Positions 6,846 to 38,580 of a stretch of 64,000 nt of DNA are shown piece by piece. Both the position numbers and the translations under genes were made by a program. The DNA is from Tetrapyrgos nigripes. Taxonomy: Eukaryota; Basidiomycota; Agaricomycetes; Agaricales; Campanellaceae. The DNA lies in contig JAACJM010000010.1 in assembly GCA_013368315.1 (NCBI GenBank), forward strand, positions 372,001-436,000, given 5' to 3'. The first letter of the stretch is position 1. The number at the start of each line of letters is the position of its first letter. Below the pieces are notes generated by a model, which was not told the DNA's origin, did not search any database, and worked only from the letters and a program-made list of their open reading frames with translations.

Positions 6846-8760
6846 TCATAGGAAATGAGAAGTCGAGACCGAGTTTCCATCGAGACCCTCGGAGTAAGAT
6901 AGATGGTACGAGTCCTGGTTGTACTGTGCAGAGTTTAAATGTTCAGCAAAGCTTCCATTACCGTTGTAGTGTGATGCGATCCCCGATACATCCGTTTGTA
7001 CGAACGGATATTCGCTGCCAAACTCTAGGGGCAAGTTTGATTCGGACGAGACAGATAGGGATGTCGATGAATTGTCACCCATGTAGAACGGAGCAGAGTT
7101 GACGTTTGAGCTGTCGGGGTAAGCAGCCTGACCAAGGTGATCAGATACGCGTAGTAGGCAGAAAGTGGAAAAACATACATGGTCAGATTTGCCCATAGCA
7201 AATACTAGCTCGCTCGAGCGGTTCAAGCCGGGACTACCGACACTTCCTGGAGACACTGTCGAGGAAGGAGAAGAATACGTGCTCGTTCCATCGTGGACTT
7301 TCAAGCCAGCAGTCATTCTTGGTACATCAGCCACAGGGCTGCCCTCATGAGAGCCGATGCCACTAACGTTTAGTTCTGACATGAGGCCGGTGACAAAATG
7401 CCCAGAGCCCTTCCGGCTGTGACAACTGCCATCGGAACCAAGTTCATGACCGCTGCCGACATCGGAGTAGAAGGCGCTGGTGGCGCTGGATTCACTTGTA
7501 CCGATGGAAGCCACCGAACCAAATCTGGAGGAGAATGTGGAGGTGGCGTCATCCTCTGTATCAATCTCTTCATCCCTAAAAACAAAGCCATGCAGATGGT
7601 GGTCGGGCGAGTTCCTTTCAGACGAAGGCGAAGTTAAAGATACCGAGCTGTGGTTCGCGACACCGAATGAAAAATCAGGAGACGGGAGTGGTCCTGGGAT
7701 TGGATCCGGTACTTGTCGGTGTGAGAAAGCATACAGCTGATTGTCGGGTAGAGACGATCGTACAACATTGTAAGGGGAAAGCGGGGAAGGCGAAGGGGAG
7801 ACAGATACAGGAACACCAGTTGGAGGGAAGCGGAAAGTACGCGAGTCTGCAGAAGAGTGTCGAGAATGAGATAGCATTGGAACTTCAGGGATGAGAGGAG
7901 GTTGGGGTGCAGATGACATGCGGAAATGCTCGTTGGAAAGACCAGAGAGTCGTGTGCCTGCCATGCCATTTTTCACCCTAGCAAGATTGGCAAAAGGGTT
8001 ATTGGCTAGTCTGTGGAGGCTGGCATCAACTGACCGGCGTCTGATAAAAGGATCAAAGTGGCCGACAAGAGGAGGCCCTCGGGAGCAGTCCTCGTTTACA
8101 GGGAACATGTCGACAGGCAGCGAGCCCCGACGAATCATGTACATCTGACTAAAGTCGGCAGACTGGTTGAAATCGTCGGGAGTTGCGAGAGGCGAGCCAT
8201 TCCATGAAGTTTGATTGGAGTCGCAACTGACGTGCAGGTGAGGCGGTGAGTTGCCTGTCGGACTGGAGCCTTGTGATGACGAGGGCTCGAGTTCAGGAAG
8301 GTCTCTGGGGAAAGTGGCGGTGGGAGGAATGATAGCAGATTCTGCTGGGTCCTGTGCGTCGCTGGCACCGTTGTTGGACTTGCTGCTGTCTGTCGACGAA
8401 GCGGTGGCAGACTTGGTGGCCTTTGACTTTTCCTTTGCTCTCCTGGAGAGGGATTAGACGAGGGAACGGGGGGGTACGTGTTACAACTGACCTGTTCTGG
8501 AACCAAACCTGGGGTTGGAAGTACGAAAAAAAAGTTGAACAAGGGAGAGCTCGAGAAAAGAGAGAACTGACCTGGACACCACGGGCGGTCATGTCGAGCT
8601 GGATGGCGAGCTCGTTGCGGAGGGCGGCATTGGGCTTTGTGTCGCGCTTGAAGATGGACTCGAGGACCTTGAGCTGGGCGGAGGTGGTGCGTTTGCGGTG
8701 CTTGACCTCGTTGGGGGTGTATGGATAGAAGGCTCGGAAGTCGACTGCTGAGGGGTCCAT
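6846..8760 (-). CDS. Homeodomain transcription factor, 583 aa
   Basis: The exons are 8760-8572, 8508-8492 (17 bases), 8442-7179 and 7127-6846, adding to 584 codons. The homeodomain starts at about residue 20: HRKRTTSAQLKVLESIFKRD, then NAALRNELAIQLDMTARGVQ, and the recognition helix VWFQNRRAKEKSK at about 64-76. The invariant W, F, N and R are all present. Spacing between helices looks like a typical 60-residue domain, not the atypical TALE loop. The remaining 500 residues are Ser/Pro/Asn-rich and probably disordered regulatory sequence. The intron at 7128-7178 is 51 bases and in frame, so it could be missed. Fungal single-homeodomain factors regulate development or metabolism; it is not clearly a mating-type HD1 or HD2 gene, and no partner gene sits beside it. 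Confidence 0.9.
8492..8508 (-). other. 17-base microexon in the homeodomain recognition helix
   Basis: The exon reads GTT TGG TTC CAG AAC AG and encodes VWFQN plus part of the next Arg. It is flanked by a 63-base intron (8509-8571) and a 49-base intron (8443-8491). The flanking exons rejoin in frame to give the canonical WFQNRRAK motif. Confidence 0.88.
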
Positions 8761-9152
8761 GGCGTAGAAAGGGTAGCTGAGGGAGTGTGGGTGGTTGGGA
8801 AGCATATATACAAGTCGAAAAACAGAAGCGCGAAATCAGCGGTGCAAAACAGGATGTGGACAGGATCTGTACATGTTGTTTTGGTAAATACTCCCGGCCG
8901 TTGCCAGGAACCCCCGATGGGAATATTCCCAATACATCCCCGCTTATGGCTAGCTTGCTTAAACAAATCAAATAATCCTATCCAATGCGACATGGGTATA
9001 GACAGTAGTCCAAACAGTGTACCATACTCCTACATATCATATCATACTCTTTCCCCCCCCTCCGTACAAAGCCCCCAAAACAAAAAACTTCACATAGATC
9101 GTGATTCCTCGGGCGCGAAGCTCTATTACGCCACCGTCAACCTATGACAAAT
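8761..9152. other. Upstream region of the homeodomain gene
   Basis: This 392-base stretch separates the homeodomain start codon from the WEE1 stop codon, both genes being leftward. It must hold the homeodomain promoter and leader and the WEE1 3' UTR. An A/C-rich segment lies at about 9050-9085. I could not assign a specific site. Confidence 0.4.
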
Positions 9153-14821: not shown

Positions 14822-16560
14822 ATGTCTCTTCTCAAAGTTTCTGGAACAAAAATCGTCAATGAAGCAGGCGAAGAAACCATCCTTCGCGGTGCTGGTCTCG
14901 GTGGTTGGATGAAGTGAGTGAACTATACTTCTTTCGCCACTGGTGTACTGAACCTCTTGACCCAGCATGGAAAACTTCATTTCTGGTCTGTTTCCGGTTA
15001 GCACTGTCGATATCGACCCTAACACTCCCGCAAAGGTTATCCCGGTTGCGAACATCAGGTCCGTGAGGCCCTGACAGAGGCAATTGGACAAGACAAGGCC
15101 GAATTCTTCTTCGACAAGGTAAGTCTCTGTCGTTCCAATGTTTCGCCATCTCACGCAATTCTCCGTGCAGTTTCTAGAATACTTCTTTACTGACGCCGAC
15201 GCCAAGTTTTACAAAAGCCTGGGATTGAACTGCATTAGGATTCCTTTCAATTACCGCCATTTCGAAGGTAGGTTCTATATTCATACTCCATGGTCTTCCG
15301 CGCTCATTTTTATCATTTCTCAAAGATGATATGAACCCGCGAGTCCTCAAGTCCTCAGGTTTCAAGCATCTTGACCGGGTCATCGATCTCTGCGCGCAGC
15401 ATGAGATCTATACCATCCTTGATTTGCACGCCGTCCCTGGTGGCCAAAACACAGATTGGCATTCCGATCACGGAGGGCATATTGCCAATTGTCAGTTGTC
15501 AGGTTATTCTCGCAAAGATGAGGAATAGACTAACTTGCTTGCACTAGTCTGGGTACACAAAGATTTTCAGGACCGGACAGTGTGGTTGTGGGAGGAATTA
15601 GCCAAGCACTACAAGGACAACAAGTGGATCGCCGGGTACAACCCATTGAATGAGTGAGTTGCTATTCCTCAACAAGCATAGCACTCGATTTTGATTTTAA
15701 ACCTACTGCTCAGACCAACCGACCCATACCACACTCGTGTCATTCAATTTTATGACCGCGTCTACGCTGCCATTCGCTCCATCGATCCGGACCATGCCAT
15801 CTTTTTCGATGGTAACACTTTTGCTTCAGACTTTTCTCATTTTGGAGAAGCCCACAAGAACTGGGACAACACTGCCTATTCCATTCACGACTATTCTCTT
15901 TTCGGATTCCCTGGTGCGCCCGAAGAATACACTGGGACTGAAACACAGCAACATCGGCTCCGTCGAAGCTACGAAAAGAAACGGGAATGGATGGATCAGC
16001 GTGGACTTTGTGTTTGGAACGGGGAATGGGGACCAGTCTATGCTCGTCGACAATTTGATGGAGACGCCACAGACCAGATCAATGCCATCAGATACAGGGT
16101 GCTTCAAGACCAACTCGCCATCTACAAGAAGGATAGTCTGAGCTGGTCGATTTGGCTTTACAAAGATATTGGATTCCAGGGTATGGTCTATGTGTCATTA
16201 GACACGCCTTACATGAAGCTGTTAGAGAAGTTTTTGGAGAAGAAACATTGGCTCGCTGTGGACGCTTGGGGAGCGGACGACTCTCATGTCAAGGACGTGT
16301 ATGAACCGTTGATCCAGCACGTCAAGAAGGAGGTCCCAGAAGAATTCCAAAAGTTGTACCCGTATCCTGTGTGGCGTATGGAAGGCAGGGTCACTCGTCT
16401 GGCCAGGAACATCCTGGTGGCGGAGTACCTGGTGAAGGAGTGGGCTGCACATTTCGTCGGAAAATCGGAGAAGGAGCTGGACGAGATTGCAGCAAGTTTC
16501 TCCTTTGAGAATTGTCTGAAACGAGACCAGTTGAACAAGATTTTGACGGAGCAGATCTAG
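14822..16560 (+). CDS. GH5 glycoside hydrolase (glucan beta-glucosidase-like), apparently cytosolic
   Basis: Exons join to a protein of about 470 aa. It starts MSLLKVSGTKIVN and shows [24 protein letters not shown], the GH5 motifs GLNCIRIPFNYRHF, HEIYTILDLHAVPGGQN, the acid/base motif GYNPLNEP, and a later WNGEWGP that supplies the probable nucleophile Glu. The N-terminus has no signal peptide, unlike secreted exo-beta-1,3-glucanases. The family hydrolyses beta-glucosides or beta-glucans. An intracellular location suggests glycolipid or internal oligoglucan turnover, but that is inference. A long C-terminal extension after the barrel (VRTLARN region, about 100 residues) is helical and charged. 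Confidence 0.88.
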
Positions 16561-18060: not shown

Positions 18061-18127
18061 CTGGAAATGGTGGGGCGCAAGAGAGTTACGCGTGAGCGTG
18101 ACCAACGTCATCCTTTCCTGCACCAAA

Positions 18128-19003
18128 ATGCCTGACGCTCGTTGGGTTGCCTTTACCTGCGTAACCCTGACAGTAGCATGCGGAACAGCGTACTCTATCC
18201 TGTATGGGACATATCTCGACACGTCCAATCCTCTCGTCGCTCATCTTGCCCATCCCCTGCACAAAACCCATTACTGGGCACGCAAATCCAACTTTCTCAA
18301 CGTGTATTTTATCAAAAAAGCCTGGGGATGGACGTCCGCTGCATTTTGGCTCCTTTGGATGACCGGTAGCTCGTCAAAGCGAACCTTTTCACGAGTGCTT
18401 CAGTGGTTGACAGCAACGTTCTGTTGGTTTATCTTCACTGCCTCGTTTTTTGGACCGCCTCTTCTTGACAGAGTCATTGCCGCTTCAGGAGGAGAGTGTA
18501 TCGTCGTCTTGCCATCAGGAGAACCCATATCTGTACCTGCAGAATACTGCTACACCAGAACCACAATTTCCCCAGCCAGCCATCCTGAAATCATCACTTC
18601 GTCCCTGCTCCCGTCTGAATGGACAGGAGTGCCCAGATTAAGGAAGGGTCACGATGTTTCGGGACATATCTTTCTCCTCACGATGTCCGTCCTATTCATT
18701 GCGGACCAGTTAAGACCTAGCCTGCGTCTTCGGGATTGGTCTGCGTTTCACAAATGGGCCATGGTGAATGCGACGGCGATGATAGGGGTATGGTGTTTTT
18801 CTGCATACACGACCAGCCTCTATTTTCATTCACCATTCGAGAAGGTTACTGGTTATCGTGAGTCAAATTGATCATCAAGTCTTGAGTTGAACTGACTCCA
18901 TGTTCAAACAGTGCTGGGTGTTGCTGGTTTTGCAATGACGCAGTTGATACCAGTCGTCTTCCGTACAAAAGCTCAACAACCTCGTGCAAATTGCACCCAA
19001 TAG
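18128..19003 (+). CDS. FIT family lipid-droplet biogenesis protein (FITM2/Scs3-like)
   Basis: A large first exon and a second exon after the intron at about 18859-18911 encode about 275 residues with roughly six hydrophobic segments. The family signatures are visible: HYWARKSNFLNVYFIKKAWGWTS, then KGHDVSGHIFLLTMSVLFI, whose two conserved His lie in the predicted active site. FIT proteins are ER membrane acyl-CoA diphosphatases needed for normal storage of neutral lipid and ER lipid balance. The start at 18128 was chosen because an upstream in-frame ATG at 18092 adds only a short polar leader. A degenerate repeat array lies just upstream. Confidence 0.88.
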
Positions 19004-22929: not shown

Positions 22930-24391
22930 TTAAGCAGTGACAGCAATACGAGGAGCAGTCTGTGTTCTCATGGGAGACTCAGTGATGACATTGTTGTGAG
23001 CACTTCCTGCAAGCTGCTGATGCATCTTACATTCGGCAATAAAGTCGCTGAACATCTTCGCGGAGTCAGAATCTCTCGGGCGATGGGTTGTAGTATTTAC
23101 TCACCTCGATTGTATCAAGAGGTCCACCAGCACTTTCCGGGTGGAATTGCACTCCCCAGACCTTTTTGCCCGAGTTGTCGGTTGACTTGATACCTTCAAC
23201 AGATGAATCGTTGCAGTTGATGAAGAATGGTTCCCATCCTGCGGGGAAAGGATCCTGAAGTTTCAATGCATACTGATGATTTTGACTAGAAAAATTGCAG
23301 TAAGTCGCCACGTTCATTGACGAACCCAGTCGACATACCTTGTCACGTAAACTCGGCCAGCCCTGATGGAACCAGATGAAGCGAGGGCTAGGACTGGTTG
23401 GTTATGGCCACGGTTCCCAAAGGTCATTCGATATGCATCCAAGCCCGCGGCCATACCAATGATCTGATGGCCCATACAGATTCCAAATATCGGCTTGCTC
23501 CATTCATTGATGGTTTGCCTCAATTTGAGTGCAGCTTCCATACAGTGGGAAGGATCGCCCGGACCGTTGCTCAAGAAGAGACCATCAAACTGATCCCTTA
23601 CGGCATTGAAGTCGTAATTCCAAGGCAGCACTGTCACTGCAGCGTCTCGGCGTACGAGCGAACGAACAATGTTAGCCTTGGCTCCGAAGTCGAGGACTGC
23701 AATCTTGACAGAGCCTGAGGGATTCAGGACATAGGGCTCTTTGGTCGAGACCTGATCAACGAGATTTTCGAGTGAGGGATCCCAGTATTCGTGGTCTTTG
23801 GGAGCAGGCAACGAAGCGTCAGAGCCAACGGCTAGTCGTCCTAGTGTGGTGCCTTGATCACGAAGCAGTCGCGTAACTGCACGTGTATCGACACCAGTTA
23901 TTCCTGGAACGTCATATCTTTTACACCAAGAAGCCAACGACTCCACAGCCAAGTAGTGTGAGAACTTTTGCGCAACGTCTCCTACGACGACAGCGGCACA
24001 CTGGATGTTCTGGGACTCGAGGACAACGCCAACATCATGAGAGTCGAAGGGAGCAGTGTTTTTCGGGACGCCGTAATTTCCTATGAGAGGTGTAGTGAAA
24101 ACGAGAATTTGACCCCGGTACGAAGGATCGGTCATAGATTCGGTATCTAGAAAGATAAAAAGAGTTGAACAATATTAGAAAGTGACGGATGTGGCCCAGC
24201 TTACAAGATGTGATGGATGTTGAGAAGACCGTTTCACCAAAAATGCTTCTTGGCGCTCCAAATGACCGTCCGTAGAAAGACTGACCAGTCTTTAAGTGGA
24301 GGGCAGCAGGAGGAAGCGTTGAACCAGGAGAGCTGGCATGGGAGGCAAAACTTCGAGAAAGACGAGGAAGAGTGTAAATCTGTCGGAACAT
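22930..24391 (-). CDS. CPA1: Carbamoyl-phosphate synthase, arginine-specific small chain
   Basis: The protein starts MFRQIYTLPRLSRSFASHAS, a basic Ser-rich mitochondrial presequence as in Neurospora arg-2. The small-chain N-domain follows: LHLKTGQSFYGRSFGAP, FTTPLIGNYGVP, YDVPGITGVDTRAVTRLLRDQG. The class I glutamine amidotransferase domain shows IAVLDFGAKANIVRSL, LFLSNGPGDP, the nucleophile-Cys motif FGICMGHQIIG and the His/Glu motif GVQFHPE. It releases ammonia from glutamine for the large chain, which makes carbamoyl phosphate for arginine synthesis. Introns occur near 24140-24200, 23290-23340 and 23060-23100. The next upstream element is a spliced leader ORF ending 16 bases before this ATG, which probably mediates arginine feedback on translation. 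Confidence 0.95.
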
Positions 24392-24407
24392 TTTTGTGGT
24401 TGTACCT

Positions 24408-24528
24408 TCAAAAGGGCAAAAGGGAGAAGACAAGATCGCTCAAATAACTAGCAGACAAAAGTTAGATGGACCTTCGATCAAAGAATAGGATAGACGTACT
24501 CGTCGCGAGTGTTTTGAGTGAAGAGCAT
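24408..24528 (-). promoter_or_regulatory. Spliced upstream ORF resembling the arginine attenuator peptide
   Basis: The ATG is at 24528-24526. Exon 1 (24528-24500, 29 bases) and exon 2 (24447-24408, 40 bases) join to a 22-codon peptide plus TGA, with the core DYLSDLVF. The 52-base intron (24499-24448) has donor gtacgt, branch point ctaac and acceptor gctag. In Neurospora arg-2 and yeast CPA1 a 24-25-residue leader peptide with the DY(L/I)SDH core stalls ribosomes when arginine is high. This leader sits at the same place before the same gene, with a 16-base spacer. The residue at the usual Trp position is Phe here. If the intron is kept, the frame gives a 16-residue peptide lacking the core. 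Confidence 0.85.
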
Positions 24529-24740
24529 GTACAAGGGCAAAGCCGTGAGTGAACGCGCAAGATAAGAGGCGGAATTTCAACTTCAAGCGAATAAAATTTT
24601 TTCTGAAACCGCCACGTGCAGACCCTTGACTCATTTGTATGATTTCATTCCAGTCATATCCTGCATCTAATTACGCTCAGACGCTGTCGTGCTACTCGAT
24701 GTATATACAGGATAATGACATGAAGCATGCAACAAGATAT

Positions 24741-31309: not shown

Positions 31310-33393
<2,084 letters not shown>

Positions 33394-36575: not shown

Positions 36576-38580
36576 TTACCAGTGACTAGTCCTAAAATAT
36601 ATTGAGCTTTTTAAAATCGAGGAGAGCGGACTGACCACTCACTGTTCTCAAGGATGCATCCATCAGGAATGTCAATCCGCCTGCCTTCTTCCGCTGCAAC
36701 TGTACAGCAATTTAATTGCAGGAAACGGCTTGGCAAAGTTTTCACACACCTATTATTATTCCGCGCAAGGTGACGTTCCTCCCGAAGTGAACATCGCCAG
36801 TGACCGTCAAGAGATCGAGATCAACCATACTCGGGACCGTCTTGAATCGTCTCTGGAACTGGTCGACCTAAAAAGGCATTCAGATCGTGGTGCAGGATAC
36901 TGGAGGAAATCAGGATATTTACGCTTCGAAATTGGTCACTCAATTTGATAGTGGGGGATTGGAACAGTCGATTGTCATTCAAGACTAAACAACCATTCTG
37001 GATTTGATAGACGTCACTCCTAATCAGTAGCAAGTCCGAGCAAGTCTTCACGGGTAGGAATCGACTTCGCGAGACGTTGATAACCTTGGGTTTCTCGAAA
37101 TACTTCACTGCGGATGCTGCTGCCGTCTCCAGTTGTATGTAGGCGCGTCTGCAAAGATGGTGGCTTAATTGAGGAAAAACGGGAACACTGACAACCTACT
37201 CATTCTCGCCGGATACTCTCTTTTCAAAGATCTCTAATTCCAACTCTCCTTTGCCTATAATTCGTTTGATGGCTGTAAATGAATTGCTCGTTGATGAATT
37301 CCGGCTGGCAGGAAGATGCAGCCTACCTTTCAGGCTTATCCACATACTGTTGGTATTAAATGACTTGAAGTGTTTCGCTGTAAGAGCGTATGTTGAGCCT
37401 GTAGAAATACTAGGATGACTTAGTTTTACCTGACATAAAGTCTTGTACATGTTCAGGAGGAACCTGTTCGAGCTCGACAAGACGAACAACGCCGTCATAA
37501 TCCACAACGGAGCCACCCTAAAACTGATCTCAGTCAATCAAGCAGAGTGAACACCACGTTGTCCATACAGTATCATCCTTGTTAGTCTTGTTGGTGACTT
37601 CTATCAAGAAATCCGATTTGCAAGTGATCATATGTTGCAGTATCTTCTCGTCTACGGTAGCCCCTAGATTGTCCGAATTCGACACAAAAACATACTCTTT
37701 GCCTTGTGATAGAAGGGCATCAAGCACCCCAGACCTGTCGAGCGCTGTGTACAGGTCACCGTGGCCGGGAGGGTACCATGTTTTGCCTTCATTGGTGTTC
37801 TTGGGACAAGGCAGATACGTGTTTTCTGCAACCTGAGGATACCTAGATTGATTGAACAGGGTGACCTTTATAGGCTGGTTCGCATATTTCCTCGTGATTC
37901 GCAGCGTTTCATCATACGTGCTGAATGAAGTCATGAACAGCAGCGGCACATCAACGTTGTGTGTTGAGTTGACGTGTAGAACCTGCTGCATAGTCATATC
38001 TAAAAAAGTCAACCCGTTGTGGACCTCCAGAGCAGCCTTTGTCCCGCCTTGCATCCCTTTATCAACATTCAGTGAAAACGGAGAACTGAGAGGTATCAGT
38101 GTACTCACCCATGGTGGTACCAAGACCACCATTGAGTTTGAGTATTGCTAGTTTCTTCAGGGAATCGATACTAGCTGACTCGGTCAATTCTTCGTAGGGA
38201 ATCACTTGGTCTGGGGCTAGGGCTTTGATGGTGCTCCAGTCTCTGAAAGATAGATCGTACATATACCCGAAAGACCTCTATCGTGAATGAGCAGGACTTA
38301 CAGTGATGGTGGACGAGATTTCTGTTCGAGATACCGCGACAACAGTTTCAAGAAAGAATTCATCTCATTCTCGAAAGCCTTAGATCAAAGTTAATGGATT
38401 GAGTGTGACTGGAGCAGATATCGGTACCTTGCGAGCAGATCCATCTGCCTCCGTATTTATCAATTTCTTGATTTCGATGGCTGTCGGTGAAAGTGGCAAA
38501 CTAGCCGAGTTCCTCAGAGAAGCTGAGCTAGGCACTCTGCGACGGCGAAAACGACGCCGGGGATACTTGAAGAGGTGCAT
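36576..38580 (-). CDS. Diverged UGP paralogue
   Basis: The start was set at MHLFKYPRRRFRRRRVPSS (38580); the in-frame ATG at 38676 is possible. The body follows the UGP family: LAILKLNGGLGTTMG, then [99 protein letters not shown] and [11 protein letters not shown]. The basic Arg-rich N-terminus differs from UGP1. The nucleotide loop seems to carry one extra residue. The C-terminus ends ENRTSHW and lacks the SGNLNMI segment. Splice junctions keep an open frame throughout, so this is probably an expressed gene. It could make UDP-glucose under special conditions or have another sugar nucleotide substrate; both are inference. Confidence 0.85.

Follow-up and report, generated by a model that had tools for sequence, protein, structure and literature searches.

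Upstream of its CPA1/arg-2-type gene, the agaric Tetrapyrgos nigripes has a short open reading frame (uORF), which is probably a functional arginine attenuator of an Agaricales CPA1/arg-2 gene, and whose coding sequence would be interrupted by an ordinary, constitutively spliced intron of 52 nt. The analysis covers a 64,000-nt stretch of DNA, here called the window, together with searches of the genome and of protein collections. The features discussed below are collected in Table 1.

Table 1. Positions within the window of the CPA1/arg-2-type gene, its leader uORF and the elements upstream of them.
Feature	Position	Strand	Description
CPA1/arg-2-type gene	22930..24391	-	Carbamoyl-phosphate synthase small subunit, 433 aa, four exons; PF00988 match; ATG at 24391
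CPA1 coding intron	24204-24147	-	58 nt
CPA1 coding intron	23338-23286	-	53 nt
CPA1 coding intron	23104-23056	-	49 nt
Spacer, uORF stop to CPA1 ATG	24392..24407	-	16 nt
uORF part 2	24408..24447	-	40 coding bases; completes Asp10 (GA, then T), then YLSDLVFSLLPF, TGA at 24410-24408
Predicted uORF intron	24448..24499	-	52 nt, phase 2; GTACGTC donor, CTAAC branch-type site (24465-24461), GCTAG acceptor
uORF part 1	24500..24528	-	29 coding bases; ATG at 24528; codons 1-9 and two bases of codon 10, MLFTQNTRD + GA
Putative attenuator core DYLSD	24435..24501	-	Codons 10-14, formed only once 24499-24448 is removed
Intron-retained uORF	24478..24528	-	MLFTQNTRDEYVYPIL, 16 codons, stop within the intron, core absent
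TGAGTCA	24627..24633	-	Motif match, 5' of the uORF
TATA-like site	24702..24707	-	TATA[AT]A match, 5' of the uORF

The 98-Mb genome, in 587 contigs, contains a CPA1/arg-2-type gene, and the spliced product of this gene is 89% identical over its full length to its best match, a 432-aa protein of Stygiomarasmius scandens (Agaricales), and 88% identical over the whole query to the carbamoyl-phosphate synthase of Dendrothele bispora, also of the Agaricales. In the protein search, 1,512 of the 7,997 proteins scored passed 1e-100, and the source names of the homologues among the matches listed (the best 120 of the 1,512) point to an arginine-specific CPA1. NCBI names the Stygiomarasmius scandens protein CAD, which is not borne out by its length of 432 aa. 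The N-terminus of the Tetrapyrgos product appears to be of mitochondrial type. The second carbamoyl-phosphate synthase (CPSase) match of the genome, C4, is presumably the pyrimidine enzyme of CAD type, because it has a long open frame (738 aa). A search of viral contigs for CPA1 homologues gave one pattern match and no relative, and a search of genome contigs gave 16 pattern matches that led to four relatives, all bacterial or archaeal and none with a fungal leader. The last coding intron of CPA1 ends in AAG, as opposed to the usual CAG or TAG.

The spliced uORF would specify 22 residues, MLFTQNTRDDYLSDLVFSLLPF. It lies on the minus strand, a point on which the original prediction was silent; the ATG, the intron of 52 nt, the 22 residues and the 16-nt gap which that prediction had described were all found. 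Its exons of 29 and 40 bases are correct as sizes, but they represent the coding parts of exons and not whole exons. The splice junction does divide the first codon of the core, that for Asp, with GA on one side and T on the other. From the uORF ATG to the CPA1 ATG the distance is 137 genomic nt. At -3 the uORF has T (start context gtacATGc) and CPA1 has A; judged on this base, the uORF start would be weak and that of CPA1 strong.

The intron that splits the coding region of the uORF is a predicted one, and a credible one. Under a strict rule, which was also applied in the open reading frame scans and leader shuffles described below (GTRNGY, CTRAY and YAG, 45-80 nt), it is the sole candidate in the 350-nt leader and it creates the core; its signals and length are similar to those of the coding introns of CPA1. 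Throughout the window, there are 17 candidates of the form GTRNGT...CTRAY...YAG of 48-62 nt, compared with 4.1 (sd 2.1) in 20 shuffles, and 38 compared with 21.7 (sd 4.8), a modest excess, in the 45-80 nt class of the strict rule. A random candidate of the former class, to which the uORF intron belongs, would therefore be real about three times in four, and for the looser class the proportion would be below one half, both estimates excluding the added fact that the 52-nt intron joins the frame of an attenuator. Candidates with a GTACGT donor number 3 in the window versus 0.75 in shuffles, and those with a CTAAC branch 4 versus 1.65 (sd 1.5), again a modest excess.

Attenuators of this kind have been described in several fungi. 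In Neurospora, the 24-residue arg-2 peptide is reported to arrest ribosomes on the stop codon of the uORF when arginine is sufficient; Asp12, Tyr13 and Trp19 are given as critical, as is position 14, where Lys is printed, with reference to Spevak 2010 (PMC3130931). The Tetrapyrgos peptide belongs to the same gene and to a similarly short upstream uORF, and the core Asp stands 12 residues from the end in both (Asp12 of 24 there, Asp10 of 22 here), whereas in Tetrapyrgos an intron divides the uORF inside the codon for the core Asp, and Phe17 occupies the place of Trp19, seven residues past the core Asp. We take the DYLSD core and the weak uORF start to be common to the Neurospora attenuator and the Tetrapyrgos uORF; the residue following DY(L/I)SD is His in the Neurospora (His17) and yeast peptides, and it is Leu in Tetrapyrgos. 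The CPA1 leader of Saccharomyces cerevisiae is likewise of the same gene and role, and its DYISD core aligns with the Tetrapyrgos peptide without gaps there or downstream, the yeast sequence being approximate. On the other hand, the yeast peptide has His and Trp where Tetrapyrgos has Leu and Phe, and it is the Tetrapyrgos uORF that has an intron. Invariant between the Tetrapyrgos peptide and two known attenuator peptides, whose sequences are approximate, are M1, T7, D10, Y11, S13 and D14.

Among basidiomycetes, Cryptococcus offers a parallel: its CPA1 (CND01050) reportedly has a conserved attenuator uORF with strong ribosome occupancy, and the mRNA is sensitive to nonsense-mediated decay, rising 5-fold in a upf1 mutant (PMC7049704). 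Outside the fungi, Toxoplasma ApiAT1 is reported to have an arginine-responsive, attenuator-like uORF peptide with an important Asp; it differs in belonging to an arginine transporter gene and in having 33 residues, and its authors consider convergence if the function is shared (PMC8370653). The claimed resemblance of the Tetrapyrgos peptide to an arginine attenuator holds for the gene, with the uORF in the CPA1 leader, for the D-Y-(L/I)-S-D core, for the distance from Asp to the stop and for the contexts of both start codons. What the peptide does not have is Trp seven residues past the core Asp. We provisionally file it as a fungal arginine attenuator peptide, on features other than Trp19. 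The Phe at the usual Trp position is present as claimed, and because of this replacement the arginine response of the Tetrapyrgos peptide is uncertain and may be altered.

A chance origin of the core is unlikely. Both strands of the 64-kb window were scanned for short open reading frames, at most 60 codons long and either unspliced or containing a single GT-AG intron of 45-80 nt. With any GT-AG intron allowed they number 19,256 (8,837 + 10,419), and DY[LIVM]SD occurs in one, the CPA1 uORF; with strict introns they number 1,999 (956 + 1,043), and the core is again confined to that uORF. No unspliced short frame in the window bears the core, so scans of unspliced genomic sequence would miss the Tetrapyrgos peptide. 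When the 350-nt leader was shuffled with its dinucleotides preserved, the core appeared anywhere in 3 of 20,000 shuffles with any GT-AG intron, and likewise in 3 of 20,000 with a strict intron or none; DY[LI]SD exactly eight residues ahead of a stop appeared once in 20,000 with any GT-AG intron and never with strict ones. At the pyrimidine-type CPSase locus (3,330 nt, plus being the gene strand), none of the 358 short open reading frames has the core. A loose pattern for the unspliced core matched the whole genome 88 times forward and 88 times reverse, as against 120 and 118 for a reversed control; because its matches are fewer than those of the control, the core motif is uninformative without its place. 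The leader has no second copy in the genome, the single match being itself. The attenuator peptide matched no solved structure at E values up to 10, and a weak search of annotated proteins for a fusion of the peptide to CPA1, which required three shared words, gave no candidate. The window contains no Rfam match at gathering scores and no tRNA.

Ahead of CPA1, seven ATGs lie within 349 nt. The attenuator's is the last of them and the only one downstream of TGAGTCA, which we take to be a Gcn4/CPC1-type site and which fits general amino-acid control; the six others, none of them downstream of 24634, would compete with the attenuator uORF if they were transcribed. One ATG that overlaps TGAGTCA opens an unspliced frame of 64 codons (24440-24634, minus strand), which overlaps the attenuator uORF and is relevant only if transcripts begin further upstream.

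The start contexts, the spacing, the parallels with Cryptococcus and Neurospora and the TGAGTCA site together make the standard working of an attenuator most likely. After splicing, many scanning ribosomes would bypass the weak uORF start and initiate at the strong CPA1 start. Cryptococcus genes with high translation are reported to have a purine at -3, U at that position being unfavourable, and leaky scanning is described in both Cryptococcus and Neurospora (PMC7049704). Ribosomes that do translate the uORF would have the newly made DYLSD core inside their exit tunnel. With high arginine they may come to a halt when the stop codon of the uORF occupies the A site, blocking the scanning ribosomes that follow, and the stalled ribosome could expose the mRNA to nonsense-mediated decay. 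The uORF stop codon lies 203 nt 5' of the next exon junction, a layout that would leave the transcript open to such decay. With low arginine, leaky scanning past the uORF would be expected.

The original prediction gave splicing the deciding role: regulated retention of the 52-nt intron would remove the core and free CPA1 from arginine repression, adding a second layer of control. The retained form does read as a different peptide of 16 codons without the core, MLFTQNTRDEYVYPIL, as had been foreseen, and in Cryptococcus intron retention is described as common, regulated by growth conditions and likelier in introns of untranslated regions (PMC5006051), which makes such a switch a testable idea. 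However, the intron signals are the usual ones and the length is like that of the gene's three coding introns. The possibility of an unusual RNA structure at 24392-24600 was considered and rejected (z = 0.01, with 87 of 200 shuffles folding equally well). Moreover, the confinement of the core to spliced RNA does not make splicing regulatory, because the same is true of any intron in a coding region. Splicing as the deciding regulator thus finds no backing in the intron signals or the RNA fold, and such a switch seems very unlikely. Equally slim are the prospects of a broader proposal, in which the attenuator of this agaric lineage would exist only after splicing, retention under stress or fast transcription would yield a harmless 16-codon uORF escaping arginine repression, and the spliced Phe variant would have an arginine threshold of its own.

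The change of two residues raises a different question. The peptide could be a true descendant of an attenuator in which the replacement of Trp by Phe and of His by Leu has cut or abolished arginine stalling, so that the uORF would now repress at a basal level or have a different threshold. In favour of this, Trp19 is described as critical in Neurospora (PMC3130931), and Tetrapyrgos has Phe there. Yet Asp, Tyr, Leu, Ser and Asp have been kept together with the exact distance to the stop, which would be improbable without continuing selection, Phe is also aromatic, and the ribosome that is its partner may differ in this lineage; we consider a weakened or repurposed attenuator unlikely, if somewhat less so than a splicing switch. 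Leaders can also be short, and transcription might start downstream of 24528, or the intron might go unused, so that the likeness would be a relic or a coincidence. The shuffles (3 of 20,000) and the scan of open reading frames (1 of 19,256) disfavour coincidence, TGAGTCA and the TATA-like site both stand 5' of the uORF, and the uORF ATG is close enough to CPA1 for its 137 genomic nt to argue against a uORF outside the mRNA; this reading is exceedingly improbable. A functional attenuator with a routinely spliced intron is accordingly the reading that we favour.

Elsewhere in the window, two genes for UTP-glucose-1-phosphate uridylyltransferase (PF01704) lie tail to tail at 31646-33171 (plus strand) and 36763-38241 (minus strand). 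They contain two pairs of 72-74 nt stretches that are 73-75% complementary, and contig C15 has further matches; the pair looks like an old inverted duplication. A fat storage-inducing transmembrane protein (FIT, PF10261; E 5.4e-40) is encoded at 18092-18868, and an exon of glycosyl hydrolase family 5 (PF00150; E 5.4e-14) at 15691-16557. The minus-strand translation of 8293-8805 includes what we take to be a homeodomain-like stretch with VWFQNR, broken as if by an intron.

Since a basidiomycete attenuator, that of Cryptococcus, is already published (PMC7049704), the Tetrapyrgos peptide would be a further example of a known switch. Among the matches listed, titles and abstract openings of open-licence papers make no mention of an attenuator uORF split by an intron, a scope that does not take in the survey of Hood, Spevak and Sachs (2007; Fungal Genet Biol 44:93-104). 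Judged from its sequence, the case is convincing that the attenuator family gains an agaric example, whose peculiarities would be the intron in the core Asp codon and Phe in the place of Trp19. If functional, the uORF would be a mushroom case of an arrest peptide that has been well studied in eukaryotes, and it would show two variations found in nature, a core that exists only after splicing and a Phe in place of the reportedly critical Trp, and the Phe variant may serve as a direct probe of the weight of the aromatic position in arginine sensing.
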